The notes under the pieces were generated by a model. That model was not told the DNA's origin. It saw only the letters and a list, made by a program, of their open reading frames with translations, and made no database searches. 64,000 bases of DNA from Tessaracoccus sp. MC1679 (GTDB lineage: Bacteria > Actinomycetota > Actinomycetes > Propionibacteriales > Propionibacteriaceae): positions 248,001 through 312,000 of the forward strand of contig NZ_JACJGB010000004.1 in the NCBI RefSeq assembly GCF_014164775.1, read 5' to 3'. Positions within the stretch are counted from its first letter, which is position 1. Each line of letters opens with the position of its first letter. Shown here in pieces: positions 23,567 through 41,400 of the stretch. The position numbers and the translations under genes are program-made.

Positions 23567-25705
23567 TCAGCCGGCTGTGGTGTGTACCTCGGCGACGTGC
23601 AAGCTCGCCGCGCTGGCTGCATGAGGGTGGTCCGCTACGCGGCTCGCCAGGGTCCGAACCGCAAGGCCGTCGGGCAGCATGTCGGAGAACTTCAACTCCT
23701 GCACCGCGCGCTTCGTGATCTCGGGCTGAATCCGGGCGAGGTCGTCGCCGAAGCGTCGCCGCGCCTCACCCAGCGCTTCCCGGAGTTCGGCCGCTCCGGC
23801 GTCGGGGCGGAGCACCACGTGGTCGTTGGTGAACGTAGCGATCGGATCTCCGAGAGTTGGCGCCACCTCGTCGAGCGCCGCTCGCAGCACCGCGTTGGCT
23901 CGACCTCCGGCCCACGTCCACCACCTTGTAGCGCCCTCTTCGTGGAGTAGAACCGTTCCTTCTGCGTCCACCCGATTGGCCCACTCAGACCTCAGCCCGT
24001 CCAGGCGGCCGCGAGCCCGGGCGCTCAGCTGGACCCCCGCCGGATCGGCGCCCAGCAACACCCGACGCATAGCGTCCACCAGCTCGAACCGCAGCGGCGC
24101 CGATGACCCCAACCACCGGGCAAGACCCGCCCCCTCGGAGGGCTCGACGAACGCCCGCCGTCTGGTCCAGTCCACGGCCGTCACGGTCCACGACCGCCCT
24201 GCGAGCGCGAGCGGTCGCGGGCCTTGCACCTTCGTCAGCAGCACCATCGGGTCCACGGTTCCGATCTCGGTTCGGCCGTGCAGGACGGTGACCTGCGGGT
24301 CGGAGGTGAAGACGCTCATCACCTCCATGAAGTGCCGCCGACCGTACCGCCGCTCCGCCTCCGGTCCGACCATCATCATGTCGCCGTCGCTGTCGAGGAG
24401 GCCGCGGTCCAGGAGTGTGTCGACGATCCGCTCGGACGCCTCGTCCGGCACCAGGGTCAGGCCGCCCAGCCAGTCCTTCCAAACCCGTCGCCCCACGGCG
24501 CGCTCCTGCAGCGCGATGGCCAGCACCTGCTGTGCCGCGATGTGCGCGGGCGAGGGCGGGGGAGTGACGGGCTCGACGTACCCCTCTGACCACAGCAGCA
24601 GCAGCGCCGCGCCTCGGAGCAGTTCGGCGTCGTCGGCGGCGAGCACGGTCATGTTGCGTGTGCTGCCCGGCCGGCGGCCGGTGCGCCCCAGGCGTTGCAG
24701 GAACGACGCCACCGTCGTCGGCGCCCCCACCTGCAGCACCCGGTCCAGGTCCCCGACGTCGATCCCCAGCTCCAGCGTGGACGTGGCGACGATCACGCAG
24801 TCGCGCGCCTCGGCGAACGCGGTCTCGGAGCGCCGTCGCTCCTCCACCGAGAGACTCGAGTGCGACACGTAGGTGTCCACCTCACGCTCCCGCAGTCGCA
24901 CCCCCAGCTGCTCCACGGAGCGGCGAGAGTCGGCGAACACCAGCCGCTTCTCGCCCCTGTGCAGCGCGGAGATCACCGTTGCCGCATTGTCCAGCGACCC
25001 GACGAAGTCAAGCGACACCTCCGGCGCCGCAGCCGGACCGACCGGAGGCGCCACGACCCGCCCGGCACTCCCCGCCGCTCGGTTCGAGCCCTGCAGCCAG
25101 GCGAGGAGCTCGTCGGGGTTACCGACGGTGGCCGACAGTCCTACCCGCTGAAGCCGTCGCCCGGTCATCACGCCGAGCCGCTCCAGCACCGCCAGCAGGT
25201 GCCAGCCGCGGTCGTCGCCGGCGAACGCGTGCACCTCGTCGACGACGATGGCGCGCACGTCGCCGAGCAGGACGCGGGGGTCGAGGGTCGCGGAGACGAG
25301 CATTGCCTCGAGCGATTCGGGCGTGGTCAGCAGGATGTCCGGCCGCTCCACCGCGATCCGGCGGCGCACCCCCTGGGGGGTGTCGCCGTGCCGGACAGCC
25401 GCCGCGCGCCCCAGCCAGGCCGCATAGGTGTCGACCCTTCGTTCCAGGTTGTTGAGCAGCGCACGCAACGGGCACACGTAGAGCACCGACGTGCCGCTCC
25501 ACGACCCCTCGGCCATCCTGGTCAGCATCGGGAATAGGGCCGCCTCCGTCTTGCCGCCGGCCGTCGGTGCCAGCAGCAGGGCGTCATGGCCGGCGAGCAC
25601 AGGGCCCACGGCCTGCTCCTGCAGCGGGCGCAGCTCGCGCCAGCCGAGGGTGTTGACGATGTGGTGCTGCACCACGGGGTGCAGGGCGTCGAAGCCGGCC
25701 ATCAC
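23567..25705 (-). CDS. brxHI: Lhr-like DEAD/DEAH helicase BrxHI of BREX type 2
   Basis: 712 aa from the GTG at 25705, which overlaps the brxD stop by four bases (GTGA). An ATG one codon later is also possible. SF2 helicase motifs: LLLAPTAGGKTEAALFP (Walker A), IVVDEVHAFAGDDRG (motif II, DEVH), STLELGIDVGDLDRVLQVG, and QRLGRTGRRPG (motif VI). The C-terminal 250 residues are the Lhr-type extension. Lhr-like helicases of this length are the BrxHI component of type 2 (Pgl) BREX loci. Last gene of the nine-gene operon. Confidence 0.85.
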   Translation of the reverse strand: MMAGFDALHPVVQHHIVNTLGWRELRPLQEQAVGPVLAGHDALLLAPTAGGKTEAALFPMLTRMAEGSWSGTSVLYVCPLRALLNNLERRVDTYAAWLGRAAAVRHGDTPQGVRRRIAVERPDILLTTPESLEAMLVSATLDPRVLLGDVRAIVVDEVHAFAGDDRGWHLLAVLERLGVMTGRRLQRVGLSATVGNPDELLAWLQGSNRAAGSAGRVVAPPVGPAAAPEVSLDFVGSLDNAATVISALHRGEKRLVFADSRRSVEQLGVRLREREVDTYVSHSSLSVEERRRSETAFAEARDCVIVATSTLELGIDVGDLDRVLQVGAPTTVASFLQRLGRTGRRPGSTRNMTVLAADDAELLRGAALLLLWSEGYVEPVTPPPSPAHIAAQQVLAIALQERAVGRRVWKDWLGGLTLVPDEASERIVDTLLDRGLLDSDGDMMMVGPEAERRYGRRHFMEVMSVFTSDPQVTVLHGRTEIGTVDPMVLLTKVQGPRPLALAGRSWTVTAVDWTRRRAFVEPSEGAGLARWLGSSAPLRFELVDAMRRVLLGADPAGVQLSARARGRLDGLRSEWANRVDAEGTVLLHEEGATRWWTWAGGRANAVLRAALDEVAPTLGDPIATFTNDHVVLRPDAGAAELREALGEARRRFGDDLARIQPEITKRAVQELKFSDMLPDGLAVRTLASRVADHPHAASAASLHVAEVHTTAG

Positions 25706-27042
25706 CCGGAGGAGGTGTCGAGCTCGATGTCGTCCAGGGACGCCGCGCCGCGGGCGGCGTTGCGCTCCACGGCCGTCAGCTCGCCGTCGCCGACGGTGAG
25801 CGCGTAGTGGGCGCGGGGATCGAAGTCGGGGAACTGGTCCACGCGATCCAGCACGTCTCCCACCAGCTTCTTGAGAAACACCCGCGGCGCGACACCGATG
25901 CGCCCGCCCAGCGACCCCGCGACAGCATCAGCCAGCGCACCGATGTACCCATCGTCGACGACGGCTCGGACCCGCCCACCTGAGGCGGCGCCGTCGGCGT
26001 AGAGGTCGCGGACCTTGCCGCCCAGCTCGACGAGGCTGTCGCGGGTGAACCCGGGCAGCCGCACCTGCACCGCGCGGGGGTTGTCGAAACGCGTGTCGGT
26101 GGTGAAGTCGGCGTGGAGGCGTTGCGCCAGCGGTGGGAGGCGGCTCAGGCCGGACGGGCCCTCGAAGAACGCCGGCGTGCCGGTAATGAGCAGGTAAAGG
26201 CCGGGGTAGCGGCCGGAGTCCACCTCGTCGATGAGCTGGCGCAGCGCGTTGAGGGCCTTGTCGCGGACGTCTCCACGGACGCGTTGCAGAGTCTCCACCT
26301 CGTCGAGCACCACCAGAAGCCCCGGGTGGCCGGCGTCCTTCAGCACAGTGAGCAGCCCCTGGAGGAACGCCATAGCACCGAAGTGGTCGAGGTCACCCTT
26401 GATGCCGGCGGCCCGCTTGGCGGAGGCCGCCACGTGCGGCTGCCCGCCGATCCAGGCGGCCAGCCCATCGGCGGTGGCGGCATCGCCCGTCAGCGACGCC
26501 CCCCGGTAGGCCCGCAAGGCCTGCGCGAAGGCCGGGGTCTTACTCGACACCGCAGCCAGCCGCCCCTCCATCAGCCGGTCGACGGCGGCCGACAGCTCTA
26601 CATCGGAGGCGGACGCCAGCGATGGATCGGCGTCCACCGCGTCAGATTCCAGCGTGAACAGCCAGCCATCCAGCACCGAGCGGAACGCGCTCGGCGGCAC
26701 GGTAGCCGTCCGCAGAGATTCGGTGATCCGTCGGTAGACCGTCTCCAAGCGGTGGAGGGGCGTCTCGGTCTCACTGATCTGCACCTCGGCCGTGGCCCAG
26801 CCGAGCCTCAGCGCCCGCTCGGCCAGGTGCCGGGTGAAGAACGTCTTGCCGGAGCCGTACTCGCCGCGGACGGCCTTAAATGTCGCGGAGCCGCCGGACA
26901 CGGCCGCGAGCTCCGCGTCGAGGGCGGACCCGAACCGGTCGAGCCCGACGGCGAGGAGGTCCAGCCCGTTCGCGGGCACGGTCCCGCGGCGGAGGGCATC
27001 GATCACCTCACGCCGACGTCGCGGCGAGACGGCGGTGCTCAT
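25702..27042 (-). CDS. brxD: BREX ATP-binding protein BrxD
   Basis: 446 aa. AAA/STAND-like P-loop ATPase: VRGEYGSGKTFFTRHLAERA (Walker A, about 60-80) and LLVVLDEVETLQRVRGDVRD (Walker B), followed by a sensor-like TGTPAFFEG. This matches the BrxD ATPase of type 2 BREX in length, position and motifs. Its ATG overlaps the stop of the SecB-like gene (ATGA) and its stop overlaps the brxHI start. Base composition is as GC-rich as pglY and pglZ (47/60 in bases 26881-26940), unlike the three genes before it. Confidence 0.85.
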   Translation of the reverse strand: MSTAVSPRRRREVIDALRRGTVPANGLDLLAVGLDRFGSALDAELAAVSGGSATFKAVRGEYGSGKTFFTRHLAERALRLGWATAEVQISETETPLHRLETVYRRITESLRTATVPPSAFRSVLDGWLFTLESDAVDADPSLASASDVELSAAVDRLMEGRLAAVSSKTPAFAQALRAYRGASLTGDAATADGLAAWIGGQPHVAASAKRAAGIKGDLDHFGAMAFLQGLLTVLKDAGHPGLLVVLDEVETLQRVRGDVRDKALNALRQLIDEVDSGRYPGLYLLITGTPAFFEGPSGLSRLPPLAQRLHADFTTDTRFDNPRAVQVRLPGFTRDSLVELGGKVRDLYADGAASGGRVRAVVDDGYIGALADAVAGSLGGRIGVAPRVFLKKLVGDVLDRVDQFPDFDPRAHYALTVGDGELTAVERNAARGAASLDDIELDTSSG

Positions 27043-27488
27043 TGGCCCGAGTCGTCCGCTTCGGACGCGGCCATGGTGAACTCCCCCTGACGGAGGACGT
27101 CGAGGGTGAAGGTCCCCATCCGCATCTTGCCGGCGAGCCCTTGCAGGGCTCCGCGGAGATACGGGTACGCGGCCATGATGGCGACCTTCTCGATGAAGTC
27201 GGTTCGCGTGTCCTCTGGGACCTCATCGTCGATGTCGCGCTCGTAGATGACAGCAACCGCCGCGACGAGATTCGCTGATGGAGTCTCAAATCGAGCGCGG
27301 AACCAGATCTCTATCCGAGCACCCCAGTGCACGGGGTTGATGTCGATGGTGAGTTCTCCGTCCGTGCTCGTTTCGTCGAGCGCCGAGAGGCCATTCCCCT
27401 GAGCTGGATCGAGCTTGAGCTCAGCAACCTCTTGGATGGTGCGTACATCGACGAGGCGGACAGCGCCTAGGAGTTCAACGACGTCCAT
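27039..27488 (-). CDS. SecB-like chaperone of a toxin-antitoxin-chaperone module
   Basis: 149 aa from the ATG at 27488, nine bases after the antitoxin stop. The frame is open further upstream, but that part overlaps the antitoxin gene. SecB-type beta strands are visible (ARIEIWFRARFETPSANLVAAVAVIYERDID), followed by the characteristic AYPYLRGALQGLAGKMRMGTFTLDVL, which aligns with the FPYxRexIxxl...pxLxlxp signature of SecB. In Mycobacterium tuberculosis TAC, the SecB-like Rv1957 stabilises the HigA1 antitoxin, and the gene order here (toxin, antitoxin, SecB) is the same. GC is lower than the BREX genes on both sides (37/60 in bases 27181-27240). The stop overlaps brxD by four bases. Confidence 0.72.
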   Translation of the reverse strand: MDVVELLGAVRLVDVRTIQEVAELKLDPAQGNGLSALDETSTDGELTIDINPVHWGARIEIWFRARFETPSANLVAAVAVIYERDIDDEVPEDTRTDFIEKVAIMAAYPYLRGALQGLAGKMRMGTFTLDVLRQGEFTMAASEADDSGQ

Positions 27489-27496
27489 GCGTAGCC

Positions 27497-27955
27497 TCAG
27501 GCAGCCGGTGTGAACTGGTGGTCGCGGTGCCCCACCTCCGCGGAGCGAAAGGTGCCGAGGCGGACTCCCGGGGACCGCGTCACCCCCACGGGCCTCTGGC
27601 GGGTCGGCGATGCCGCCACCTTCACGGTGATGGATGCGGGTACCCACTCGTCTCGGCGGTGGTCCAGCAGCTGCCCTGAATCGAGCTCCACCCTGTGGGA
27701 GATGAGCGCCCCGACGGCGTGGGCGTACCGACGAATCCGCGAGAGCGTGGGGTTGCTGTCGTGAGCTTCGAAGTCCGCAACGGTCGGCTGCTTCACGCCC
27801 AAGATCTTGGCGACGTCGGCCTGGCTGAGCCCGCGATCCTTCCGGACGCGAACCAGCGCGTCCAGAAGCTCTTGGTCGTTCTCCACCAGCAGGTCGGCGC
27901 GGAGGGCTTCGGGCGACGTGGGGTCGAGGCCGAGTAGCTCGTCTAGCGTGCTCAT
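27497..27955 (-). CDS. Xre/HigA-type antitoxin with C-terminal extension
   Basis: 152 aa. The HTH_3 domain spans about 33-86 (LSQADVAKILGVKQPTVADFEA is the core). About 60 further residues form a tail rich in Arg, Pro and Val, ending DHQFTPAA. In chaperone-dependent antitoxins the C-terminal tail (ChAD) makes the protein unstable until SecB binds it. The tail here has that position and size. The start codon overlaps a perfect 16-bp palindrome (27954-27969), suggesting autorepression. The C-terminal 20 codons come just before the SecB-like gene. Confidence 0.75.
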   Translation of the reverse strand: MSTLDELLGLDPTSPEALRADLLVENDQELLDALVRVRKDRGLSQADVAKILGVKQPTVADFEAHDSNPTLSRIRRYAHAVGALISHRVELDSGQLLDHRRDEWVPASITVKVAASPTRQRPVGVTRSPGVRLGTFRSAEVGHRDHQFTPAA

Positions 27956-27969
27956 AGACTTGAGTCTAT
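27954..27969 (-). promoter_or_regulatory. Palindromic operator at the antitoxin start
   Basis: ATAGACT-TG-AGTCTAT on the plus strand: perfect 7-bp arms around a 2-bp centre, covering the antitoxin ATG (27955-27953). A TTGACA hexamer lies just upstream on the minus strand (27981-27976), and a TATAGA -10-like hexamer is inside the palindrome itself, which would give a nearly leaderless transcript. The Xre protein encoded here is the obvious candidate to bind it. Such a site would let the antitoxin and SecB (and brxD/brxHI) be transcribed independently of the pglW promoter. Confidence 0.6.
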
Positions 27970-27991
27970 AACTGGTGTCAAGCTGAAGTGC

Positions 27992-28480
27992 CTAGAAGAG
28001 CGGTTTGCTGAAGCCCAACCCCCACCGATGAGTTTGGCAGCGCCGAATGCGCGTCCCGGCGGTATCGATGGCCGCGTTTTGGTGCTGCTTCGTGGCGCGG
28101 TCATCCCCCTGCACGATCTGCTTCTCGTGCACTTTGGCCAGGATCGTTGAATCGGGCTCCAATGGAGGCTCATGAAAGTAGCCGCGCAGATGACTCCCAT
28201 CCCAGGACCACCGCAGTTCCCAGAGCAGCGGGTCCCGTGACACCGGCTTCCACTCGTCGCCGCGCAGAGTCCCGGCGCTCGCCCGCCTCAGGATTGCCTT
28301 GAACTCCGCGTAGCGCATCTGGATCTCGGATGAGGTCAGTGCGTCGGCGTCGCTTGCCTTCATCAGGCGCACGATCTCTGGGGTCACCAGGTCCGTCCCG
28401 TCAGACTCGCAGAGGGGATGCCAGACTCGCGCCTTTCCGGACGCGGCATCCGGCTTCGAGTCCGGCTGGGGCCCTGTCAC
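27992..28480 (-). CDS. RelE/HigB-like toxin of the TAC module
   Basis: 162 aa from a GTG that overlaps the pglZ stop by four bases (GTGA). The centre and C-terminal half read LLWELRWSWDGSHLRGYF, then ILAKVHEKQIVQGDDRATKQ and AAIDTAGTRIR. This is the HigB/Gp49 pattern (xxxELR...xxRxxY, hydrophobic strand, LxxFxKK-like, then an A-x-x-R helix). HigB-type toxins are ribosome-dependent mRNA interferases. The protein is longer than typical HigB (about 100 aa), with about 75 extra N-terminal residues. Position directly before an Xre antitoxin and a SecB-like gene supports the assignment. Sequence divergence means the family call is moderate. Confidence 0.62.
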   Translation of the reverse strand: MTGPQPDSKPDAASGKARVWHPLCESDGTDLVTPEIVRLMKASDADALTSSEIQMRYAEFKAILRRASAGTLRGDEWKPVSRDPLLWELRWSWDGSHLRGYFHEPPLEPDSTILAKVHEKQIVQGDDRATKQHQNAAIDTAGTRIRRCQTHRWGLGFSKPLF

Positions 28481-31149
28481 GCGCGCACTCCGTACTGCTC
28501 GGCCAGGAGGGCGACGTCGAGGGTGACCGCCTGGGTGGTCGGGTCGGTGGCCACCACCGGGTAGCCCTCCACGTTCAGCAGTTTCCCCACTTGGCTCATC
28601 ACCATGGGCACCCGGTTCGGCGGCACGCTCATCAGGGCGGCCGCGCGGGTGGCGCTCAGGCGGTGGTCCGGGGCCGCGGTCAGCGCCTCGACCAGCGTCG
28701 ACACCGCGTCATCGGATACCGCGAGACGGCCCACGAGCTTCTTCTGGGCCTTGTACGTCGACGACGACACGAGTGCGCGCCCCGCACCCCCGGGCGACGG
28801 GGGCTCGGGCACCGCCGAGAACAGGTCGGGCTGGGGCACGTCCGCCGGCACCGGCTCCACCACCGCCGCGACGACCTCGGCCCGCACGGGCGCGGTGACC
28901 TCCCACCACTCGGGCTCGGCCACGGGGGCGGCGGTCAGAGAGTGGGTCAGGGTCGACGGCGCCAGCAGCGCCACCGGGACAACCACCTCCGCGGGCGCGG
29001 CACCCCCGTGGTAGCCGGCCTTCAGCGGCCCGTACCGAAGCCGCTCATTCACGGCCAGAACCGCCCGGTGATCCGGAGTCAGCACCCGCGGCCCCGACAC
29101 CTGCACCTCGTCCGCCTCCGCCGGCGAACCGGCTGCCCGGTACCGACCACCGATCCCGACGCCGCGCTGGGTGCCGCGCCGGCGTTCGACGACGTGGCCG
29201 TGGTCGCTGGTCAGCACCACCAGCCGCCCCGCGGCGCGGGCCGCGCGCAGCAGCGGTCCCAGGTGTTTGACCGTTTCGGCGGTCCAGTCGGTGCCGCCGG
29301 GGTCGGTGCGGTCGAGGGCGTCGTCGATGGTGTTGAGCACGCAGCCCACCAGCCGGAACCGCTCCACCTCGCCGATGGCCAGGCGCACGTCGTCCGCCAG
29401 TGCGAAGCCTTGGCGGCCGGTGTCGAGGCCCTTCTTGTGGAAAAGCGGCGCCTCACCCAGCCCGAACGACGACGCGTGCTGGGCGAACGTGCGGCGCTCG
29501 GCGTCCTGCTGCCCGCTCGTCAACCGCCCGGCCAGCAGCGACGCCCGACTGAACTCGGTGACGCTCGGCAGGACGGTCAGCGCGGGTTGCCGCGCCGTCG
29601 AGCCGGGCACCAGGCACTCCACCATCCCGAACTCCAGCTCGGAGGTGGCGTGCGCGATGATCTCGGTGGCCACGCCGGCGCTCATGCCGTCGAGCACCAG
29701 CAGCAGCGTGGGGTACTGCCTGGCCAGCGGCACCACCACGCTCGGCAGCACCTGTTCCAGGCCGAGCACCCCGGTGAGCTGCTCCTCGCAGCCGTCCCGC
29801 GCCAGCGAGGCGGCGAATTGCAGATCGTGCGCGTCTCGCCGCTCCTGCACCGCCGCCAGCACCGATTCCAGCGCCGCCGCCAGCACCGGCTCGTCCACGC
29901 CGGTCTCGGCGTCGTTGACCGCCGAGTCCACCCATGCGTCCACGCGCAGATGCCGCCCGGCCAGCCCAGCGAGCCCCTCCGGAGCCAGCTCCGACGAAGC
30001 CGCCTCCAGCCATCGCGCCAACCGCACCGCCGCCCGGGTGGGCGGCACGCGGACGTCGTCGTCGACCAGTTCGTGCTCGGTCACCCGCGCCCACGCGTTC
30101 CCCAGTTCGGCCGAGTCAGCCCCCGCGCCGCGGTCCAGCACCGCGGCCAAGGCCCGCAGCCGGCGGGTCAGCCCGGAGCGCAGCAGCCGCGACCCCTCCG
30201 CCAGGTGCTGGGCCTGCGCCTCGGCCATGAGGTCGTCGGCGTGGGCGAGCAGCCGCCGGGCGGACTCCGTTGATGCCCGGCCGCCCAGCAGCCCGGACAG
30301 CACGATCCGCGACAATCGCCCTGCCGCCGCCAGCGCGCCCCGGGGCACGTCGCCCCAGCGGTGCTGCAGCCGGGCGAGCGCCAGCTCGGCGTCGTGCCGC
30401 GCGTCGGCGGCCAGCAGGCAGTCCACCGCGACACCCAACGGCACCAGATCCGTCACCGTCCCGCTCCGCAGCAGCGACGCCACCACGGGCTTCGCCTCGC
30501 CGGACGAGTCGGCCACCCACTCCAGCAGGGCATCGACGGTGGCCTCCCCGGCGCGCGGACGCAGCCGGGCGATCTGCGACGGCAGCCCCGGGTCGGTGGA
30601 CCAGTGCAGGACCGCGATCAGATCCACCGGCCCCGGCGGCAACCCCAGCTCGGCGCGGGCGGCGGAGGCCAGCGCGTGGTCGCGGGTGAGAACACCGGCG
30701 GGGGCGGGCGGCCAGCCGTCGACGGGGGCCAGCTCCAGCAGCCCGGAGGCCACTTCGCGGGCGTTGGGCAGTTGGAGGAGGCGGGCGTCGACGCTGTGCG
30801 CGGCGAACGCCTGCTGCACGGCCTGCCAGGGGTCGGGGTGGCGGAGGCGCTGCCAGAGGAAGTGGGCGAGCAGGCCGGCGCCGAGGTCGGCGTCGCTGCG
30901 GTCGGTGACCACCACCAGCCAGCCGTCGGGGTCGGCGGCCCGAATGGCCTCGCGGATGGCCAGCGCGGAGCCCGCGGGCACGATCCGCACCTGCTGCGCG
31001 CCGTGCTGGAAGCTCGCCTCGCGGGTGGCCTCGGGCCGTGCCCGCACGCCGATCACGCCCTTGGAGTAGTTCTTCTGGCGGGCGTAGTCGACGAAGGCGC
31101 GGGCGATCGCCGGGGTGACCGGCGCGCTCGCCGCGACCTCGACGCTCAC
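28477..31149 (-). CDS. pglZ: BREX alkaline-phosphatase-superfamily protein PglZ
   Basis: About 890 aa. A GTG at 31149 gives a GTGA overlap with pglY and is preferred over the GTG at 31161. PglZ is a core BREX protein of the alkaline phosphatase superfamily. Metal-binding elements are visible: LLLVLDGMSAG (about 480) and VVLTSDHGHVVERR (about 643), the latter the canonical D-H-G-H metal ligand block. A long helical N-terminal half precedes the phosphatase core. The C-terminal region has a helical SATRAAALMSVPPNRV segment and a small domain. PglZ links the methyltransferase PglX and the ATPase PglY in the defence complex. The stop is shared with the start of the toxin gene. Confidence 0.9.
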   Translation of the reverse strand: MSVEVAASAPVTPAIARAFVDYARQKNYSKGVIGVRARPEATREASFQHGAQQVRIVPAGSALAIREAIRAADPDGWLVVVTDRSDADLGAGLLAHFLWQRLRHPDPWQAVQQAFAAHSVDARLLQLPNAREVASGLLELAPVDGWPPAPAGVLTRDHALASAARAELGLPPGPVDLIAVLHWSTDPGLPSQIARLRPRAGEATVDALLEWVADSSGEAKPVVASLLRSGTVTDLVPLGVAVDCLLAADARHDAELALARLQHRWGDVPRGALAAAGRLSRIVLSGLLGGRASTESARRLLAHADDLMAEAQAQHLAEGSRLLRSGLTRRLRALAAVLDRGAGADSAELGNAWARVTEHELVDDDVRVPPTRAAVRLARWLEAASSELAPEGLAGLAGRHLRVDAWVDSAVNDAETGVDEPVLAAALESVLAAVQERRDAHDLQFAASLARDGCEEQLTGVLGLEQVLPSVVVPLARQYPTLLLVLDGMSAGVATEIIAHATSELEFGMVECLVPGSTARQPALTVLPSVTEFSRASLLAGRLTSGQQDAERRTFAQHASSFGLGEAPLFHKKGLDTGRQGFALADDVRLAIGEVERFRLVGCVLNTIDDALDRTDPGGTDWTAETVKHLGPLLRAARAAGRLVVLTSDHGHVVERRRGTQRGVGIGGRYRAAGSPAEADEVQVSGPRVLTPDHRAVLAVNERLRYGPLKAGYHGGAAPAEVVVPVALLAPSTLTHSLTAAPVAEPEWWEVTAPVRAEVVAAVVEPVPADVPQPDLFSAVPEPPSPGGAGRALVSSSTYKAQKKLVGRLAVSDDAVSTLVEALTAAPDHRLSATRAAALMSVPPNRVPMVMSQVGKLLNVEGYPVVATDPTTQAVTLDVALLAEQYGVRA

Positions 31150-34100
31150 TCGAGCCGCCACTCGACGACGACGTCCGCCTCGGGGTGCTCAGCGGCGAAC
31201 TTCTGTAGCTCCTCGGAGACCTCACGCAGCCCCCGCGACCCGCGGATCCGCGCCCGCCCCGCGGCGGGCCTCCGAGGTGCCGGCTCCGGGCTGGGCTCGG
31301 GCGCCGGGACGGGAGTGGGGGCCGGGGCGGGGACGGGAGAGCCATCCGCCAGCCACCGGAACAGGTCGCTCTCGGCCTTCTGCAGCGCCGGCGCCAGCGG
31401 GGTGACGAACTCGTCCGCGCGAAGCGCCCCGTGCAGCCGGCCGAGGATCGCGGCTGCGTCGTCGGCCCGCGGGCCTTCGCCGTAGGAACCCGCGTTGAGC
31501 GGCTCGAACCGCGACCACTCGTACGCCCCCACCCTCCCCGCCACTGCAGAAGCGGAGGACAGCGACCGCCCCATCGTCGTCGGCTCCGCGACCTCCGCGG
31601 CGGCGAGCCGGCGAATCAGCGGCAGCCCGCCCAGGCCGCGCAGCGCGTCGCACAGCTCCGCCGCCGCCCGCGCCGTGGCCAACCGGTGGGCCGGGCGGCC
31701 CCCGTCGATCCGCAGCTTGCCCGCGGCGCCCTCCAGGGCGGTGACCAGGCGCGCGGCGGGGTCGGAGAGTTCCAGGGCCTTTGCCCGCACCGCGTCGGCG
31801 AGGTTGGCCACTGCCACCGGCGTGGCGTGGGCGGTGGCGGGCACCCCGAACACTGCCCCCGCCAGGCGGGTGGCGTCTGCCCACTCCTGTTCGGTGGGCA
31901 TCGGCTGGACGCGCAGCTCCATCTCGTCGCGCACCGCACCCGGCTTGGGCGCGGGGATCGCGGCTCCGTGGTGGAACCAGGCCCGACGGCGCAGCGCCGC
32001 CCAGGCGAGGATCACCAGGTCCGCCACCTCCCGCGTCAGGCCCACCTGCGGCTCCATCGCGGAGATCCAGCCGCGCACCTCGCCCACCTGGACGGGCCCG
32101 TTGTTGTCCGCGTCGCGGGCGCCGAGGCGCCGCTCGAACTCCGGCCCCCAGGCGGAGAAGTACTCGTCCCCCATGAGGAAGTGGGTCTCGGCGGCCTTCC
32201 CGACGCCCAGCGGGTTGGCGATCCTCCGCGCCGCCGCCGCGTCGGAGCTCAGCGGCACCCGGTTCTCCCGGTCGGCCAGAGCCTGCTCGATGTAGCCGTA
32301 GGTGGCGGCCAGTTCCCGGACGCGGATCTCCTCGTCGCCGGGCTCGAAGCGCGGGTGCGCCGGGTACGTGGCGGAGAAGGCCTCGCGCACCAGGTGCTCA
32401 AACGCCTGCTTGAGCGTGCCCCCGGCGGGCGGGCGCGGGGTGAAGCTGGGCGTCAGCGACGCGAGCACCTCCGGGTGCGACGCGTCGCCGACGACGTCGC
32501 TCGCGCCGAGCGGCGACTCCAGGTCGTAGGCCACCTGGATGGCCCGGCGCAGGGCGTGGGCCAGCGAATCACGCTGCGACTGCAGGATGGTCTTGGCCTG
32601 GATGCGGCCCATCTCGGAGAGGTGGTCGGCGTGCTGGGCGTACCGGTCGCCGGCGCCGTCGAGGAGGTAGTTGAGCTTCACCAGGCGGCTGACGTCTCGC
32701 ATCCGCTCCTGGCTGAAGAACCGCGGCAGCCACACGATCGTGCGCTCGTCCCAGTTGCGGGCGCGCATCGAATCGATCCGGGCCAGGTCCTCGGAGGCGG
32801 AGTGGCCGGGCTCGTCGAAGGGGTGATCGATGACGAACCGCCACGTGTCGGGGCGGGCGCGGAAGTGGTCGTCGCTCAGCCAGCCGGCGTCACGGACGTT
32901 GCCGAACACCAGGTCCACCGTGCGGGGGGTGCCGCGCCAGACCACCCGGTGCGCGTGGGCGCCCAGCAGGTCCTGCTGCCCGAGCGAGCCCAGCCCGAAG
33001 CCCTCGGCCACCAGCTTCTTGATCAGGTCCCGACGGCGCCCGTCGTTGTCCTCGCCGCGCGCCCGGTCCACCACCGACTCGTAGTCCACGTCCGAGAGCC
33101 CCACCGTGATGAGCGGGTTGCGGCCCTCCGTCTCCACCCGGATCTCAGGGGCCCGCCCCGCCCACAGCCGCACCTTGGACAGCACGACGGCGGCCTCACC
33201 GTTGGGCAGGGGGGAGCGGATGGAGCCGTGATTGAGCGACGCCAACCGCCCCGCCGTCAGCCCTTTCAACGCGGGCACGTTGGGCGCCACGGCGCTGAGC
33301 AGCAGCGTCTTCGCCAGCCGTAGATCCCCGACGGCGCCCGCAGGCAGCGGCGCGGAATCGGCCAAGTCCGCCGGGGTCAGCGAGTACTGCTCCAGGATCA
33401 TCGGCAGCAGCCGCTCCTGATACAGCGTGCTCGCGGCCCGGAACAGGGCGGCCGAGGCCTCGTCGAGAGGCTGATCGCCCGCCGCCCCGGTGACCAGGTG
33501 GTCGAAAGCGTCGCCCACGGGGATGACGTCGTCGATGGTGAGCGCGTCGCGGCGGTCCACCAACAGCTGCTGCATCACCTTCAGCGCCGTGCGTTCCCGC
33601 TGCATGACCCCGGCCAGGGACCGCAGCGTTGAGACCAGGGCGGGGGAGAACGGGTAGGTGAGCCGGAACTGCCGGGCGTCGGCGCCGCGGTGCCGGTCGC
33701 TGGTGTTGACGCCGTCGAGCAGCACGTCCCAGGACTCGGCCTGACGGTCCAGCGTGGCGAAGGCGCGGTCGATCTCGCGCGCCGCCTCGTCGCTGCGGGG
33801 CGTGAGCAGGCGCTTGTTGGCCACGAAGGGAAGGTTGTCGTCGCCCAGCCGGATCTCCGGGAAGCGGCCCTCCTGGAACCGGAACGCCTGATCCAGCGCC
33901 TGCTGCTCCGCACCGCTGGCGCCCGAATCGGCCAGCCACCGCCGCAGGTCCATCTGGCGGGCGATGAACGACACCAACGGGATGCGGCGCCCGCCCTGCC
34001 CGCCTTCCACCAGCTTGCTGATCTTCTGCGCCTCGGCGCCGAAGAACGCGTGGTCGCGGATCCGGAACGCCAGCCACAACACCAGCTCATCGAGGAACAG

Positions 34101-34889
34101 CACCACGGCGTCGTACCCCAGCGATTGGGCGTGCGCGGAGATGGCGGTGAGGCCCTCGTCGAGCCCGATGTGGGAGGCGTGCCGGCTGTAGGAGGCGAAG
34201 TAGCGCTCCTGCAGGGCGCTCACCAACTCCGCCCGACGGCGGTCCTGCGCGGACGCCGCGCGAGCCGCATCATAGCTGTCCGCGTCCCAGGTGGCGGCAC
34301 CGCCGAGTACCCCGCTCCAGACGTCCGCCGTCTCGGTGCCCTCGTTGAGGCCACCGAAGAACCCCTCGTCGCCGATCCGGGCCCGCAGCGAGTCCGCGTC
34401 CTCCAGCAGCTTGGCGGTCTGGTGCAGCAGCGGCGGGGTGGAGCCGGGGTGCAGCTCGTCGATCTGGCGGAGGTAGCCGTCGAACAGCGCCTGCTCCAAC
34501 GACTGCGCCCCCAGCAGGTGGAACGTCAGCGGCAGCACCTTCCGCCCCTGGAGCTGCGGGTCGTGCCGGGCGACGGGGCCCGCCAACTCCGGGATGGCCC
34601 GCGCCTTCGGGTGCTGCCGAAGCAGCGCGTAGAGCACGGCCATGAAGTGACTCTTGCCCGAGCCGAACGAACCGGTCAGGAACGCGCCCTTGCTGGTGTT
34701 GGCGGAGATCGCGTCGCTGACCACGCCCAGCGCCCTGTCGAACGCGGTGGCGAGCTCCTCGGTGACCACGTAATCGTCCAGGGTTCGGGCGAGGTGAGCC
34801 TCGTCGACGCTCTCGGTGAGCCGCAACACGTAATCGGCAGTGCTGGTGGTCTCCGGAATGGTGAAGATGTCCCGCAACAGGGCGCTCAT
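31146..34889 (-). CDS. pglY: BREX ATPase PglY (BrxC-like)
   Basis: 1247 aa, ATG at 34889 overlapping the pglX stop (ATGA). P-loop ATPase with FLTGSFGSGKSHFMAVLYALL (Walker A, about residues 72-80) and YDAVVLFLDELVLWLAF (Walker B). The rest is long and helical, ending in an acidic Pro-rich linker (PVPAPAPTPVPAPEPSPEPA) and a short C-terminal domain. PglY is the type 2 counterpart of BrxC, a large AAA+ ATPase required for phage exclusion. Length and order (X, Y, Z) fit exactly. Confidence 0.9.
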   Translation of the reverse strand: MSALLRDIFTIPETTSTADYVLRLTESVDEAHLARTLDDYVVTEELATAFDRALGVVSDAISANTSKGAFLTGSFGSGKSHFMAVLYALLRQHPKARAIPELAGPVARHDPQLQGRKVLPLTFHLLGAQSLEQALFDGYLRQIDELHPGSTPPLLHQTAKLLEDADSLRARIGDEGFFGGLNEGTETADVWSGVLGGAATWDADSYDAARAASAQDRRRAELVSALQERYFASYSRHASHIGLDEGLTAISAHAQSLGYDAVVLFLDELVLWLAFRIRDHAFFGAEAQKISKLVEGGQGGRRIPLVSFIARQMDLRRWLADSGASGAEQQALDQAFRFQEGRFPEIRLGDDNLPFVANKRLLTPRSDEAAREIDRAFATLDRQAESWDVLLDGVNTSDRHRGADARQFRLTYPFSPALVSTLRSLAGVMQRERTALKVMQQLLVDRRDALTIDDVIPVGDAFDHLVTGAAGDQPLDEASAALFRAASTLYQERLLPMILEQYSLTPADLADSAPLPAGAVGDLRLAKTLLLSAVAPNVPALKGLTAGRLASLNHGSIRSPLPNGEAAVVLSKVRLWAGRAPEIRVETEGRNPLITVGLSDVDYESVVDRARGEDNDGRRRDLIKKLVAEGFGLGSLGQQDLLGAHAHRVVWRGTPRTVDLVFGNVRDAGWLSDDHFRARPDTWRFVIDHPFDEPGHSASEDLARIDSMRARNWDERTIVWLPRFFSQERMRDVSRLVKLNYLLDGAGDRYAQHADHLSEMGRIQAKTILQSQRDSLAHALRRAIQVAYDLESPLGASDVVGDASHPEVLASLTPSFTPRPPAGGTLKQAFEHLVREAFSATYPAHPRFEPGDEEIRVRELAATYGYIEQALADRENRVPLSSDAAAARRIANPLGVGKAAETHFLMGDEYFSAWGPEFERRLGARDADNNGPVQVGEVRGWISAMEPQVGLTREVADLVILAWAALRRRAWFHHGAAIPAPKPGAVRDEMELRVQPMPTEQEWADATRLAGAVFGVPATAHATPVAVANLADAVRAKALELSDPAARLVTALEGAAGKLRIDGGRPAHRLATARAAAELCDALRGLGGLPLIRRLAAAEVAEPTTMGRSLSSASAVAGRVGAYEWSRFEPLNAGSYGEGPRADDAAAILGRLHGALRADEFVTPLAPALQKAESDLFRWLADGSPVPAPAPTPVPAPEPSPEPAPRRPAAGRARIRGSRGLREVSEELQKFAAEHPEADVVVEWRLE

Positions 34890-37800
34890 CGCGCTCCCTC
34901 CCTCTCATTACCGCTGGTTGCGCGGCGTCCGCGCGTGGCCGCCGCCGGCCGCCACGCAGCCAGGTCATCGACGGTGAGGCCGAGCGACGCCAGATGGTCG
35001 CGCAGCTGCTCACCCGAGAACTGCGCCGGGCTCACCCCGAACGTGGGATCGATCGCCGAGTGCCACTGCTCCACCCACGGCTGCACCTCCGCCAGCCCCG
35101 CGACCAACGGCACCAGCGCGGCGTCGTCGACGCCCTCAGCCGTGCGCTCGGCGAGGATGGTGGCCAACGCCAGCGACTGCTGCGCGTGGTCCCACCCCGC
35201 CCAACCCAGCAGCGGCGTGGGATCGGTCTCACGCCCGGCGCCGGGGTAGAGGATGAAGCGCTCCTTCGGCACGTCCAGCTTGCCGCGGTCGGACCAGTAG
35301 GCGGTCTTGCGGAAGTCGGCCGTGGAGTACTTCGGCGGCACCGGGATCGCCCCCACACTCTCACCCGCATCCTCGCGACGCTGCAGCTCCCACGTCCGCT
35401 GCCACTCCGCGAACTTCCGCAGCCCCGAATCCTTCAACCGGTACGCCGCCAGGTACGGCACCGCCTCACTCTCGACGAGCGACGTCAGCGCCGCGACCAG
35501 GTCCGCATCGCGCCGCCCCTGCCACAGGTCGACGACCGAGACGAACTCCGCATCCCGACCCAGCGCGTCGGCGAGTTGCCCCACCGACTGCGGACGCACC
35601 TGCCCCTGCGACGTGAACCATAACGACCGCTCCTCCAACCGGTCCAGCAGCCAGCCGCGCAGTGCCCGGTCCGCCTGCTTGGCGAACGGCTCGGTAGCCC
35701 ACCGCCGCTTGTACTCGGGGGTCTCCAACAGCCGGATGGCGTCAACCTGCTCGATCGCATCGATCCGCCGCTGCACCAGGTCGCGGTAGGCGGCCGGCCA
35801 GTGGCCGGGGATCTCGGTGATGGGGGTGGAGCCGTGCCGGGAGAACCACGTGGTCTCATCCTCGCCCGCCGCAATCCTCCGGGCCAGCACGATCTCGAAC
35901 GCCCGCTCCCCGAGCCTCACCTCCGGCGGCTCCCCGGCGTACACGATCGCCTCGTCCAGCAGCCCGTACGAGGCATACACCTCCCAGTCCAGCTCCTCCT
36001 GGTGCGCGATCATCCGCCCGCGAAGCGAGGACTGCGCCGCCCCCGCTTCGCCCAGCAGGTCGGCGGTGGGTGAGTTCGACGCGATCAGCGCCTCTACCTG
36101 GTTCCTGGACAGCTCCTGCGCCAGGTCGTCCAGCACCCGGCCACGGTCGAGTGGCAGCGTCTTGGGGAGTGGGAAGTCCTGAACGTTCGCCCCGTTGAAC
36201 TGGTAGCGGTCGGACCAGGGCTGTTGCGACACGCGCGCACCATCCTGGCCAACTGGGTCGCCACCCTTGGGATAGCACTTCTGCTTGAGCCAGAAGCACG
36301 CCGTCGAAGAGTTCAGGACACCCAGAAGTTCGAGGTGGTCGCCTTCAGTGGCGCCGGCCGGCAGCTTGATCACGGGAGCGGTTCTCCCAATGGCAACGCG
36401 GTTGCGCTCGAGGACAAAATGGTTGTGCGTGGCGACTTCGGCGAACGTGATGGTCCAGGCGTGAGAGCCGTTGTCTCTAGGCAGCTGGTGCCACTCGTAG
36501 AAGGGCCGCCCGTCGGTGAAGTACGTTCCTTTGGAGAACGTGGCACGGTTACCCAGTTCAGTCCGCGTACTCCAAAGGCGTTTGGCCCACGCCGGGAACC
36601 TGTCCATGGGCAACAATTCGTTCTGTTCGCTGTATGGAAACCACGCTTGGGTAGTTGCCGCAACTCGAAAGTCCCGCACGGCCTCGCCGAGCACCAATGG
36701 AGCTGTCGCCGCTGATTCCAGGCGCAACTGTCCCTTCACGTGGCCCGGCAACATCATCGAGTCATCACTGCCCATTACGCCGAAGATGCCAATTCGAAGA
36801 GCGAACGCGCCTAGGCGTCCGCGCGGATTGCTCTCCAGACGCTCGAGTAGTGATAGAGCACCACCTCCAGACAGGCTCCAGGGATGTCGATCCAACGAGC
36901 GTCTTTCAAGGTCGGCCACGTTGGTCCACCGGTCAGCGTAACCGGGCTGGTCGAGGCCTCTCACAATCGAGCGCCACACCAAGCCGTCGTCAGGCTTGCC
37001 GGGACGGCCCGGTTCTCCTTCGACCCCCAGGACCGCTCTCACCGAGGATAGGACGGGTGAGTCGTTACGGCCGACCAAAAGGACCGTCGGCGTGCCGTGG
37101 CCAGGAATGTATGCCCCCGATGTGTCGATGACCAGTCTGAGATCGAGAGCGGCAAGGAGGTCCTCGACCATCGGTGTGCCGAACTCACGCTTCATGAACG
37201 CGTTCGACGTGATCTGGCCCACCCATCCAGCCTGAGCAGCGCCGTCGCCTCGCTTGGCGAGCGCGAACAGCAGCTCCATGAAGGGGGCGGTGAGCTGGTA
37301 CTTGCCCTTCAAGTGGGTGAAGCGCTCACGGTAGCCGGCGTTGAGTGCCTTGTCCTTGACTGTGATGTAGGGCGGGTTCGCGACGACCGCGTCGTACTGA
37401 CCGCTCCGAAGCGTCTCGATCAGAGCCTCCTTGTGCTCCGTAGAGTAAGCGAACTCGCCCTGGGCCTGGAAGAGACCCTCCTTGACGCGGCTGAACCACA
37501 GCGAGTCTCCGGCCAGCACATTGATGGTGAACCCCGGCGCGGTTTCCAGCGACGTGTGGCCCACCGCCTGCAGCGCGGCCACCGTCAACCGGAACACCGC
37601 GATCGCGGCGGCGAACGGGTTGATGTCCACCCCCCACACCCCGTCGAGCGCCTTCTGCACCCGTTCCCGGGCACCCAGCGCGGGCCCCTCCTTCTCCCAC
37701 CGGGCCAGGAGGCGGCGGAACGCGCCGAGGAGGAAGTGGCCTGACCCACATGCGGGGTCGATCAGCTTGAATCCGTCGAGCGGGCGGTCGTTCAGGGCGG

Positions 37801-38446
37801 GTTCGAGGGTGCGGTCGAGGATGAACTCCTCCACGAACTCGGGCGTCTGCAGCAGGGCGTAGGTCTTCTTCGCGTGCTCGGAGAGGTCCTGGTAGAGGTC
37901 GCCGAGGAAGCGGGTGCTGAGCTCCGGGTCGGTGAAGCTGTGGACCAGGGCGCCATCGTCGCCGCGCCGTCGCCAGAACTCCAGCAGCCGGGTGACGGCC
38001 TGGCCGGAGGGGGAGGCGGTGTGCAGCATTGCCTGATCGTCGACGAGGCCGGCGGTGGCGGGTGTGGCGGCGAGGTGCGCGATTGCCTGCTCCACCCATT
38101 CGCGGTCCGTGTGTTCGGGGTGGGCGCGGAAGTAGGCGAGCTGCGCGTCGAGCGCCTCCTGCCGTCGCTCGGCGGGCCCGGAGATCCAGACGGGGCTCAG
38201 CAGGGCGTTGTCCTCGCAGAAGCGGACGAATACCGTGGTCAGCACCCAGGAGACGGCGGCTTGAGTGATCCGGTCGTCGGCCCAGGCGGTGTAGGTGGCG
38301 GCGGTGCGGTCCCCGGAGGTGGCGGCGGCGTGCTCGCTGCGCCACTCGCCGTCGTATTCGGGCAGGGTGATCCGCTGCCGAAGGTCGTCCTCCAGGAGAA
38401 GCACCTGCTTCTTGAGGTCGGCGACGAGGGCGGCGGGGCTGATCAC
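34886..38446 (-). CDS. pglX: BREX adenine-specific DNA methyltransferase PglX
   Basis: About 1186 aa, using the GTG at 38446 (VISPAALVADLKKQV), which overlaps the pglW stop as GTGA. PglX methylates adenine in an asymmetric motif and marks self DNA. SAM-binding motif I is DPACGSGHFLLGAF (about 230) and the amino-methyltransferase motif IV is ANPPYITVK (about 354). The C-terminal half contains the target-recognition region. Sampled composition falls there: bases 36421-36480 are 37/60 GC against 46/60 in bases 37681-37740 of the methyltransferase core. That suggests a recombined specificity domain. No frameshift or phase-variable tract was seen. Confidence 0.9.
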   Translation of the reverse strand: MISPAALVADLKKQVLLLEDDLRQRITLPEYDGEWRSEHAAATSGDRTAATYTAWADDRITQAAVSWVLTTVFVRFCEDNALLSPVWISGPAERRQEALDAQLAYFRAHPEHTDREWVEQAIAHLAATPATAGLVDDQAMLHTASPSGQAVTRLLEFWRRRGDDGALVHSFTDPELSTRFLGDLYQDLSEHAKKTYALLQTPEFVEEFILDRTLEPALNDRPLDGFKLIDPACGSGHFLLGAFRRLLARWEKEGPALGARERVQKALDGVWGVDINPFAAAIAVFRLTVAALQAVGHTSLETAPGFTINVLAGDSLWFSRVKEGLFQAQGEFAYSTEHKEALIETLRSGQYDAVVANPPYITVKDKALNAGYRERFTHLKGKYQLTAPFMELLFALAKRGDGAAQAGWVGQITSNAFMKREFGTPMVEDLLAALDLRLVIDTSGAYIPGHGTPTVLLVGRNDSPVLSSVRAVLGVEGEPGRPGKPDDGLVWRSIVRGLDQPGYADRWTNVADLERRSLDRHPWSLSGGGALSLLERLESNPRGRLGAFALRIGIFGVMGSDDSMMLPGHVKGQLRLESAATAPLVLGEAVRDFRVAATTQAWFPYSEQNELLPMDRFPAWAKRLWSTRTELGNRATFSKGTYFTDGRPFYEWHQLPRDNGSHAWTITFAEVATHNHFVLERNRVAIGRTAPVIKLPAGATEGDHLELLGVLNSSTACFWLKQKCYPKGGDPVGQDGARVSQQPWSDRYQFNGANVQDFPLPKTLPLDRGRVLDDLAQELSRNQVEALIASNSPTADLLGEAGAAQSSLRGRMIAHQEELDWEVYASYGLLDEAIVYAGEPPEVRLGERAFEIVLARRIAAGEDETTWFSRHGSTPITEIPGHWPAAYRDLVQRRIDAIEQVDAIRLLETPEYKRRWATEPFAKQADRALRGWLLDRLEERSLWFTSQGQVRPQSVGQLADALGRDAEFVSVVDLWQGRRDADLVAALTSLVESEAVPYLAAYRLKDSGLRKFAEWQRTWELQRREDAGESVGAIPVPPKYSTADFRKTAYWSDRGKLDVPKERFILYPGAGRETDPTPLLGWAGWDHAQQSLALATILAERTAEGVDDAALVPLVAGLAEVQPWVEQWHSAIDPTFGVSPAQFSGEQLRDHLASLGLTVDDLAAWRPAAATRGRRATSGNEREGAR

Positions 38447-41400
38447 GCGGGGTGTCCTTCCGGGACGGGAGTGGCGAGGTGCGTGCTGATCCAATCGCGC
38501 GGCACCGACACATATTGGTTGGGGGCGGTGAGCGGCAGCGAGTGGCCGTCCACCATGGGGCCCAGGTTGCCGTGCAGCTGGGGGACCACGAGCCAGACGG
38601 CGGTGGGCCGCGGGGTGGAGAGGTCCATCCAGCCGGCGAGCAGGCCGAGGGCGTCGTAGCGGGCCAGGAGGGAGGCGTCGAGCAGCGCGACGGGGCGGCC
38701 GCCGGCGGAGGTGAGGGTCTCGTCGATCGCTGCAGCGACGGCGGGCAGGGAGCGCTCGACGAGGGCGCGGAGGCCGGTGTGGGCGCGGGTGCCGGGCTGG
38801 TCGGCGTCGGCGCCGAGCACCACGGCCCAGCTGAGCCCGGCGTGGGCGGCGGTGGCGTGGAGGGCGTCCATGAGGGTGTGGGTGAGGTCCAGCGCGACGG
38901 CGTCGAAGTGGGTGGTGAGCACGCCGGCGAGCCGGTCCTGGAGGGCGGCCTCCACGCCGAGGGCGATGAACGAGCGGCCCTTGCGGCTGTCGAGGAGGCG
39001 CTGGCCGACGGCGCCCGGCCCGGTGGCCACCGGGGTGGTGCCGAGGGTGGTGGCCAGGCGCGAGTCGAGGCCGGTGGTGTCCTTGCCCGCGGCGACGGGG
39101 GCGCGGTAGCCGCGGGCGGCGTCGTCGTGGCGGAGGCCGCGGCCGGCTGCGTCGACGATGGCGTCCAGCGCGGGGCGTTGCGGCATGGGCGGCAGCTGGG
39201 GGAAGCGGGCCTGGACGCGTTCGCGCAGCTCGCTAGGCTGATACAGCTGGCCGGGGACGACGGCGGGCAGCGCGTAACGCAGCGCGGCCTCGGCCGAGAG
39301 GCTGCGGTGGTGGAGCTCGCCGACGGCGGAGGCCCCAGCGTGCTGGGAGACCAGTGCGGCGAGGTGGGCCAGGCGGTGGCCCTCGCGGAGGTCGTCGTAG
39401 GGGGCGGCGGCGCGGGCGGGGGTGGCCTGGTCCAGCACGGCGCCGAGCTGCTCGGCGGCGCGGGCGGCCGGGACGAGGGCGGCGGTTCCCCCGGTCTCGT
39501 CGACGAGTGAATCGGCTCGGCGGGCGAGGGCCTCGGCCACGTCGAGGAGGTCGTGGCGGACAGCCACCAGCAGCGGCCTGCCCTCGCGACGGCGCAGCAA
39601 CCAGCCGGTGTCCTCTACGGTGTCGGGTCCCTCGGCGCGCTCGCGGGCGGCCTCCCGGTCCATCGTGCAGCGCAGCAGGCCCTGGGCGAGGCGGAGGTGG
39701 GTGGCCTCGTCGGGGGAGGGGCCGGCCACCATCAGCGACATGAGGTGGCGGGCGAGCTCGTCGAAGGTGGCCACGCCGCCGAGCTCGCCGAGCCGCTGGT
39801 CCACGGCGCCGGTGAGCTGGGTGAGGAGGGTGAGCGCGGCAGAGTCTGAGGCCCAACGCTCCTGGATGGTTCCCAACAGCTGGCTGACGCGGGCCCGCGT
39901 GACCGGCGGGGTGAGCGCGGCGGCGAGCTCTGCCTGGGTGGCGTTGGGATCCGAGGTGCCGAGCACTCCGAGGAGGAGAGCGGCCAGCTCGACGGCGCGG
40001 TCCTGTTTGCCCTGGCGGGCGGCGCCCAGGAGCAGGTCGGCGCAATCGTGCGGGGCGGGGAGGGGGGTGGCGCCGTCGACGACGCGCCAGCTGCGGTCCT
40101 TGCGGTGGAACCGTGCCCGCCAGGTCTTCGCGCGACCCCTGATCTCCTCCCGGGTGGCGACGGCGACGCCGGGGAGGCGGGCGAGGCGGACGAGGTCCAC
40201 CTGGGCGAGGTCACCGACGGTGGCCACCTTCAGCTGCTCCAGTCCGGAGACGGCGCGCGGGGTGAGGCCCGACTGTGCCAGCGGCGTGTCTTCGTCCGCC
40301 TTCTCGGCCAGCTCGTCGGCGTTGGCGGGCGCGACGGAGCTGGCCGGGAAGCAGGCGCGCCAGTCCAGGAGCATCTGGGCGGCGGTGTCGTGGCGGTCCG
40401 CGGCGCTCCGGGCCAGGGCTCGGGTGAAGAAGTCGGTGAGGTGGGCGGCGGCCGAGGGGTCGAACTCGGCGGCGACGACGGTGGCGTCGTCTTGGATGGA
40501 GGCGGGATCCGAGAGGCCGTCGCCGTAGACGGGCGGGTGGCCGGTGGCCATCTCGAACAGCACGACGGCGGCGGCGTAGCGCTCGGCGGCCGAATCGTAC
40601 TGGCGGCGGGTGCTGAGGAACGGGTCCAGGTAGGGGCGGGTGCCGGCCTGGATGTCCGAGGCGGCGGCCTTGGTGAGGGAGAAGTCGAACAGGACCAGGT
40701 GCATGGCCCGGTCGTCCTTGGCGCCGCGCTTGCCCTGGAGGCCGAGGTTGGCGGGCTTGATGTCGCGGTGGGTGACCCCCGCGTCGTCGAGGGCGACGAC
40801 GGTCTCCAAGAGGTCGATGCCCCAGCGTTCGAGGTAGTCCAGGGAGAGGCGCTCCCGGTTGCCGAGGCGGGTGGCCAGGGTCTCGCGGCCGGCGCTGGCC
40901 AGGAGGAGGGCGCTGCGGCCGCCGACGTCGATGGGGCCCTCGAAGAGGCGCGCCACCCTCGGGGTGGTGAGGTGGCGCAGGGCCTCCGCCTCGTCGTCGA
41001 GACGGCGGGCGGCGGCGTCGTCGACGGCCACCTTGAGGACGCGCTCGGGGTGGTCCTCGGAGGCGAGGTCAATGACGAGGAGCCCCACCGCCGTGGAGCC
41101 GGCGCCGAGGCGGCTCTTCAGCTCGAAGCGGCCGCCCAGGAGGGCGCCGGGGCCGGCGTCGAGGGGGTCGGTGACCTCCTCCGGCGGGGGTGTCGCGGCT
41201 TGGTCGAGGGCGGCCAGGAACGCGCCGACGTCCGGCAGCCGCTCCGAGACCTGCGGGCGGGTGGCCTGGAGGATGGCCTCGCGCAGCGCCGGCGGCACCT
41301 CGGGCAGCTCGACGGAGACGTCGAGGCCCTGCTGCTCGCGGAGGCGCGCGGTGAGGTCCGCGCGGGTGCGGGCGGGGAGTTGACCGCCGGTGACGAGGTA

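Follow-up and report, generated by a model that had tools for sequence, protein, structure and literature searches.

What is a toxin-antitoxin-chaperone (TAC) cassette doing inside a defence operon? The question is raised by 64,000 nucleotides of Tessaracoccus sp. MC1679 (contig NZ_JACJGB010000004.1, positions 248,001 to 312,000), hereafter the window, in which genes for a HigB/RelE-like toxin, an Xre antitoxin and a SecB-like chaperone separate pglZ from brxD of a bacteriophage exclusion (BREX) type 2 operon. The answer that we favor, with somewhat more confidence than doubt, is that this divergent HigB-HigA-SecB TAC occupies, as a payload that can be exchanged, a cargo slot that the operon has between pglZ and brxD, where it would act as an abortive second layer. 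The observations behind this reading are gene content and order, the SecB fold, the helix-turn-helix (HTH) domain, a conserved tryptophan and a degron-like end in the antitoxin tail, the occupancy of the slot, and a mismatch between the cargo and the BREX tree.

Occupancy of the interval between pglZ and brxD

Gene junctions were measured in 23 BREX-2 loci, 15 from the window's own bacterial family and eight from outside. The family loci derive from 18 pglZ rows over the cut-off, after dropping one contig of G528 (C12, same score as C11) and two contig-end pieces (G574 and G548); pieces below the cut-off (G543, with ATPase cargo, G019 and contig C208 of G475) were not counted. From a separate search, G327 was left out as lying at a contig end, and G000 had already been counted. 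One pglX-pglY value (G475b) is an artefact, and junctions entered as NA were not measurable. The pglZ-brxD interval is occupied in 10 of the 15 family loci, by 699 to 6830 nt, and empty in five, in which stop and start overlap by 4-7 nt; outside the family it is occupied in one of eight. The pglY-pglZ junction never exceeds 38 nt (22 measured) nor brxD-brxHI 17 nt (20 measured), and pglW-pglX (11 measured) and pglX-pglY (11 measured, the artefact among them) are also tight within the family. Outside it, pglX-pglY is large in five loci and pglW-pglX in one, perhaps because the genes are ordered differently there or further slots exist.

The cargo is diverse. Family slots hold PDC-M07A/B (L068), a DrmD-like helicase with a TmtA-like sacsin protein (L069), SoFic (L071) and a FitA-like protein with a PIN protein (VapBC; L077), and the occupied locus outside the family carries NYN/HEC-09 on the opposite strand (L078). 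A further type is a 393-aa AAA_16 ATPase (L072:4881-6062), without a PADLOC match in the scan of that locus; slot open reading frames (ORFs) in L073-L076 are 82-86% identical to it, the ATPase-type ORFs of all five loci are 80-99% identical to each other, and we regard the gene as a candidate unknown defence gene. PADLOC defence models are matched by three of the five other cargo types in the family (three of the eight other occupied loci), the VapBC and ATPase cargo having no such match. In G528, where the site is empty, the brxD GTG overlaps the pglZ stop (GAGCAGTACGGAGTGCGGGCGTGAC). In the window the junction reads GAGCAGTACGGAGTGCGCGCGTGAC, and the GTG at that place belongs to the toxin, which thus starts where brxD does in the empty allele.

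The PglZ tree places the window together with G020 and G028, both carrying other cargo (100/100; 91/90 in the BrxD tree), and not with G011, the other TAC locus. Cargo labels require nine changes on the BREX trees, the minimum being seven, yet a count this low arose in 6 and 3 of 200 shuffles, so that the labels are more clustered than most shuffled sets; therefore cargo changes hands, but not freely. The TAC label changes twice on the PglZ and BrxD trees, and with only two such rows the shuffle test is uninformative. Whether the TACs of the two BREX loci share one descent is not taken as settled, for two gains, or one gain with more losses, both fit. An earlier note on this DNA had proposed a survey for the same insertion, which bore fruit at the pglZ/brxD junction of Tessaracoccus bendigoensis; other family slots hold other cargo or none. 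A class-wide brxD sample (30 loci read from among the rows over the cut-off, of which four repeat earlier genomes) added 26 loci, with pglZ within 100 nt in 19, at 373 nt in one and not within 1.5 kb in six, and none of the 26 has a TAC in the stretch examined. Four of the brxD loci that lack pglZ within 1.5 kb have an ORF upstream of brxD in antisense orientation, which looks DUF262/GmrSD-like in L166, L170 and L178 and reverse-transcriptase-like in L167. Since relatives carry other genes, several defence genes among them, at this one place, the BREX-2 operon would appear to be equipped with a slot for interchangeable back-up weapons.

The three proteins of the cassette

All three genes lie on the minus strand: the toxin (27992..28480, 162 aa, GTG start), the antitoxin (27497..27955, 152 aa, Pfam HTH_3 E 1.7e-9) and the chaperone (27039..27488, 149 aa). 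The toxin GTG overlaps the pglZ TGA (GTGA, 28480-28477) and the chaperone TGA overlaps the brxD ATG (ATGA, 27042-27039), so that the three ORFs and both overlaps described in the earlier note hold, with the cassette at 28480-27039, and toxin translation is likely coupled to pglZ. This is not a chance cluster of ORFs, because T. bendigoensis (L035) keeps the same three genes at the same junction, with 61, 72 and 59% identity. The same note took a dip in GC as a sign of acquisition. The dip is there (64.6% against 67.5-75.2% in the BREX genes): within the operon, 5% of stretches of equal length fall to that level. Across the whole 64 kb, however, 28% do, which makes it weak evidence for acquisition, and it was set aside. 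The cassette is probably exchanged as a unit, the basis being the occupied and empty sites and the trees rather than GC.

The 149-aa protein was rightly called SecB-like: its monomer structure model and its profile both match Rv1957 of Mycobacterium tuberculosis, at about 17% identity. Lying beside an HTH antitoxin and a HigB-like toxin, it is a dedicated SecB-like chaperone encoded with a toxin-antitoxin (TA) pair, as in a TAC. A Pfam search gave 0 families for the window protein at E up to 1, SecB (PF02556) included; the L037 relative (E 0.12) and a more canonical protein, that of L005 (E 0.0018), both matched SecB below the cut-off. An RNase P chain matched by chaperone profile A10 at E 0.005 was taken for chance.

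The toxin alignment carries the catalytic pattern of the HigB/RelE superfamily, E-x-R...R...x-K, each residue being present in 11-12 of 12 rows; the match to the residues in PMC9098466 was judged by eye. Sequence search against Pfam Gp49 (PF05973) matched 0 families; profile-profile comparison with it gave 89%. Profile searches of the PDB with the toxin alignments returned no hit from five rows and only an unrelated match (E 0.33) from 14. Thus the TAC-type cassette inside BREX-2 that had been proposed is borne out, strongly for the SecB fold, and for HigB by the active-site pattern, the profile comparison and a weak model. The TAC is a member of a divergent subfamily that escapes all four libraries searched for annotation, namely Pfam, NCBIfam, PADLOC and PHROGs.

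HTH matches in the antitoxin cover residues 34-88, leaving the tail of about 60 residues noticed earlier, a putative chaperone addiction domain (ChAD; residues 93-152, 27500..27679, minus strand) with Trp104 and a terminal -Ala-Ala. The tryptophan is kept in 5/5 aligned tails and the final alanine in 4/5 (alignment A7); other relatives end in -FALAA, -FALGA, -ERAA, -PLAA or -LIAA, and the antitoxins of L038, L096, L097 and L099 have no final Ala. In M. tuberculosis HigA1, according to papers cited here and below for parts of their text, the tail residue W108 is central for chaperone binding (PMC6377645) and the last two residues, Val-Ala, form a ClpX degron (PMC8165232). In the genome from which the window comes, the tmRNA tag likewise has an -AA end (FVLAA), and taken together these features would fit a ChAD with a degron. 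The tmRNA gene itself (G000:C12:238709-239076) lies about 9 kb before the window start and is a possible island attachment site.

Relatives, proposed working and alternatives

Does the module depend on BREX? Among the 60 nearest-kin genomes, its own included, six match the chaperone at E 0.001. T. bendigoensis (G011) has the cassette between pglZ and brxD, G004 and G002 (L036, Pseudopropionibacterium massiliense) have it without a BREX gene in 19.5 and 20.4 kb and without a BREX-2 pglZ match anywhere in the genome, and G032 has a Gp49-HTH-SecB-like TAC. The match in G046 looks like chance, as does that in L006, where no SecB-like ORF is among the ORFs listed. A species-genome scan gave four loci, in BREX in T. 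bendigoensis and outside it in P. massiliense, a Pseudarthrobacter and an Agreia, and the order-wide sample gave chaperone matches in 17 of 391 genomes, with the order toxin-antitoxin-SecB in 7 of the 12 loci read (L091, L093-L097, L099). No BREX gene was detected at E 0.001 in 26 TAC-relative loci (two of them phages), mostly covering 1.5 kb on each side, and G516 has such a TAC at a distance of some 2.4 Mb from a BREX-2 locus whose slot is empty. Since relatives occur without BREX genes nearby, and in G002 and G004 without a pglZ match, the TAC module needs no BREX partner.

The chaperone was found in no plasmid at E 0.001, and a viral-contig scan gave 35 pattern matches, 0 confirmed; 12 Gordonia phage records match it. 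Two of these phages (Suerte and Azula) carry, beside the repressor in the immunity region of a temperate phage, a 176-aa gene, an HTH gene and a SecB-like gene in a row (L105:1985-3384 and L106:1993-3390), the toxin-like and SecB-like genes being annotated as hypothetical. Their 176-aa proteins match the toxin profile (E 2e-5 and 3e-4, search set to 1000 sequences), their antitoxins likewise end in -AA, their chaperones are 30-35% identical to that of the window, and there is no BREX gene in the stretch examined. Elsewhere (L100, L101, L098 and L102, about 780-1980 of the oriented locus) a 214-235-aa protein without resemblance to HigA by eye precedes the SecB-like gene, possibly another chaperone-paired system. 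In L007 (503-1510, minus strand) a SecB-like protein with an extra C-terminal region of about 190 residues is encoded downstream of an HTH ORF and an ORF that is HigB-like by eye, the latter absent among the toxin-profile matches listed.

The closest known system is the M. tuberculosis TAC (HigB1-HigA1-SecB-TA, Rv1955-Rv1957), from which the window differs in that toxin and chaperone escape the four profile libraries and lie inside BREX-2. The same three-part logic recurs in two anti-phage systems of Escherichia coli, HigBAC of strain C496, triggered by a lambda tail protein (PMC11980606), and CmdTAC, triggered by the T4 capsid protein (PMC11618068), although CmdT is an ADP-ribosyltransferase and not HigB-like. 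In the window the antidote appears to depend on the dedicated chaperone, which would bind the antitoxin tail and mask its C-terminal ClpX-type degron, so that the antitoxin stays folded and restrains the toxin. On infection, abundant unfolded phage protein would occupy the chaperone, a trigger borrowed from HigBAC and CmdTAC, with which it agrees; the antitoxin would then be degraded, and the freed toxin would cleave mRNA on ribosomes and stop phage production. Such a system could serve as an abortive second layer when BREX fails, requiring no contact with BREX proteins. Toxicity, chaperone dependence, the phage trigger and the part of ClpXP are the inferred elements of this scheme.

Several results weigh against the favored reading. 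Only two BREX loci with this TAC were found, the class-wide loci are without it, and the clustering of cargo labels speaks against free exchange. Neither toxin nor chaperone matches any of the four libraries, and the toxin profile fails to recognise the canonical HigB of L005 (hmmsearch, E 5). The structure check that the earlier note suggested for the 162-aa protein yielded a weak model (pLDDT 57.6), with which Foldseek found nothing at E 0.001 and HigB1 ranked third at E 0.10.

The earlier note suggested that the TAC could be a guard. On this reading it would watch a BREX component or activity, and phage inhibition of BREX, for example by a DNA mimic, would free the toxin, as PARIS does for restriction systems. 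Position and the double 4-nt overlap do tie TAC dose to pglZ and brxD, and back-up effectors are common in BREX loci (PMC12839542), but related BREX-2 operons hold unrelated cargo or none at the same place and the TAC relatives, G002 and G004 among them, do without BREX; the guard idea is thus not supported as stated and stays unproven, and we consider it improbable. TA modules stabilise DNA, and the slot also accepts VapBC and Fic-type cargo, so that a selfish module that only stabilises the locus by post-segregational killing, with no anti-phage role, has a somewhat better claim, though still an unlikely one: most other family cargo types match defence models, VapBC and the ATPase excepted, and an anti-phage function is proven for HigBAC and CmdTAC, which are of the TAC type. 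Least probable, by a little, is a stress regulator sensing export or proteostasis that lies in the operon by happenstance; it has a precedent in the proposal that preproteins or aggregates hijack the chaperone of the M. tuberculosis TAC (PMC8165232), but leaves residence in a slot accepting defence genes, or in phage immunity regions, unexplained.

The surrounding operon and its wiring

The complete BREX-2 operon occupies 42684-23567 on the minus strand, in the order pglW-pglX-pglY-pglZ-[cassette]-brxD-brxHI, and all six genes of BREX type 2 were recognised in this one locus by model searches, in agreement with the earlier note. NCBIfam models are reached by PglW (38443..42684, 1413 aa, NF033442, E 0), the methyltransferase PglX (34886..38494, 1202 aa, NF033451, E 0), PglZ (28477..31161, 894 aa, NF033446, E 7e-227) and BrxD (25702..27042, 446 aa, NF033438, E 4e-197), and PADLOC models by the BrxC-type ATPase PglY (31146..34889, 1247 aa, BrxC-PglY, E 0) and the helicase BrxHI (23567..25705, 712 aa, E 2e-302); PglY scores 969 bits against its own NCBIfam model, under the 1700-bit cut-off. 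Next to the operon, at 13774-22043 on the plus strand, lie a 1202-aa ORF without a PADLOC match at 1e-10 and a 1600-aa helicase matching PADLOC DruE (E 1e-170), which suggests that the defence island also holds a Druantia-like system.

The toxin and antitoxin genes are separated by an inverted repeat, ATAGACT-CA-AGTCTAT (27954..27969, minus strand), with 7-bp perfect arms, which extends over two bases of the antitoxin start codon, the A and T of ATG, and is a possible operator or leaderless promoter; such arms were reached by 26 of 5000 shuffles of the window stretch. Of 16 antitoxin genes compared, nine have a left box ATA(G/A)A(C/G)T in this register (window, L035, L036, L003, L038, L091, L093, L094 and L095, L036 being nearly identical to L003); in this comparison the L037 start codon had been placed three bases too early. 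The right arm is imperfect in L035, L036 and L003, and L093 has a perfect 24-bp palindrome. In the Pseudarthrobacter TAC (L037) the antitoxin start is surrounded by an inverted repeat whose perfect arms measure 18 bp (9515-9552). A TANNNT box ending 7 nt before ATG would suit a leaderless actinobacterial promoter, and if it is one, antitoxin, chaperone and perhaps brxD-brxHI may be transcribed from a separate promoter. TTGACA upstream of the antitoxin was rejected as a -35 box, its spacing to the -10-like TAGACT being 7 nt. The TAC might even be wired into BREX regulation, through an antitoxin-repressed promoter upstream of secB-brxD-brxHI, such that titration of the chaperone by phage protein would lead to antitoxin loss, toxin firing and a rise in brxD-brxHI expression, an idea that we rate about as low as the guard; if true, the chaperone would be a phage sensor for the second half of the operon.

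BREX loci are described as carrying back-up effectors (PARIS, GmrSD, HEPN, PIN and Schlafen; PMC12839542), effector genes inside the operon like the window cassette, and BREX-2 is reported from 1309 taxa in the same paper. Its main text contains no occurrence of SecB, chaperone, HigB or "between PglZ", and the sections covered describe no pglZ/brxD slot; the word BREX does not occur in the CmdTAC paper (PMC11618068). A TAC within BREX appears in no title or abstract beginning of the open literature among the matches listed, most subscription papers and all bioRxiv preprints being outside this scope. The divergent-subfamily TAC as one payload of a BREX-2 cargo slot is a real finding beyond the earlier note. 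Two known defence principles meet here in a single operon, and whether BREX back-up effectors are independent or coupled becomes testable. In the BREX-2 of one bacterial family, known and unnamed genes alternate in a payload slot at a stop/start overlap, and reading the pglZ-brxD interval is a simple way to search for new defence genes.
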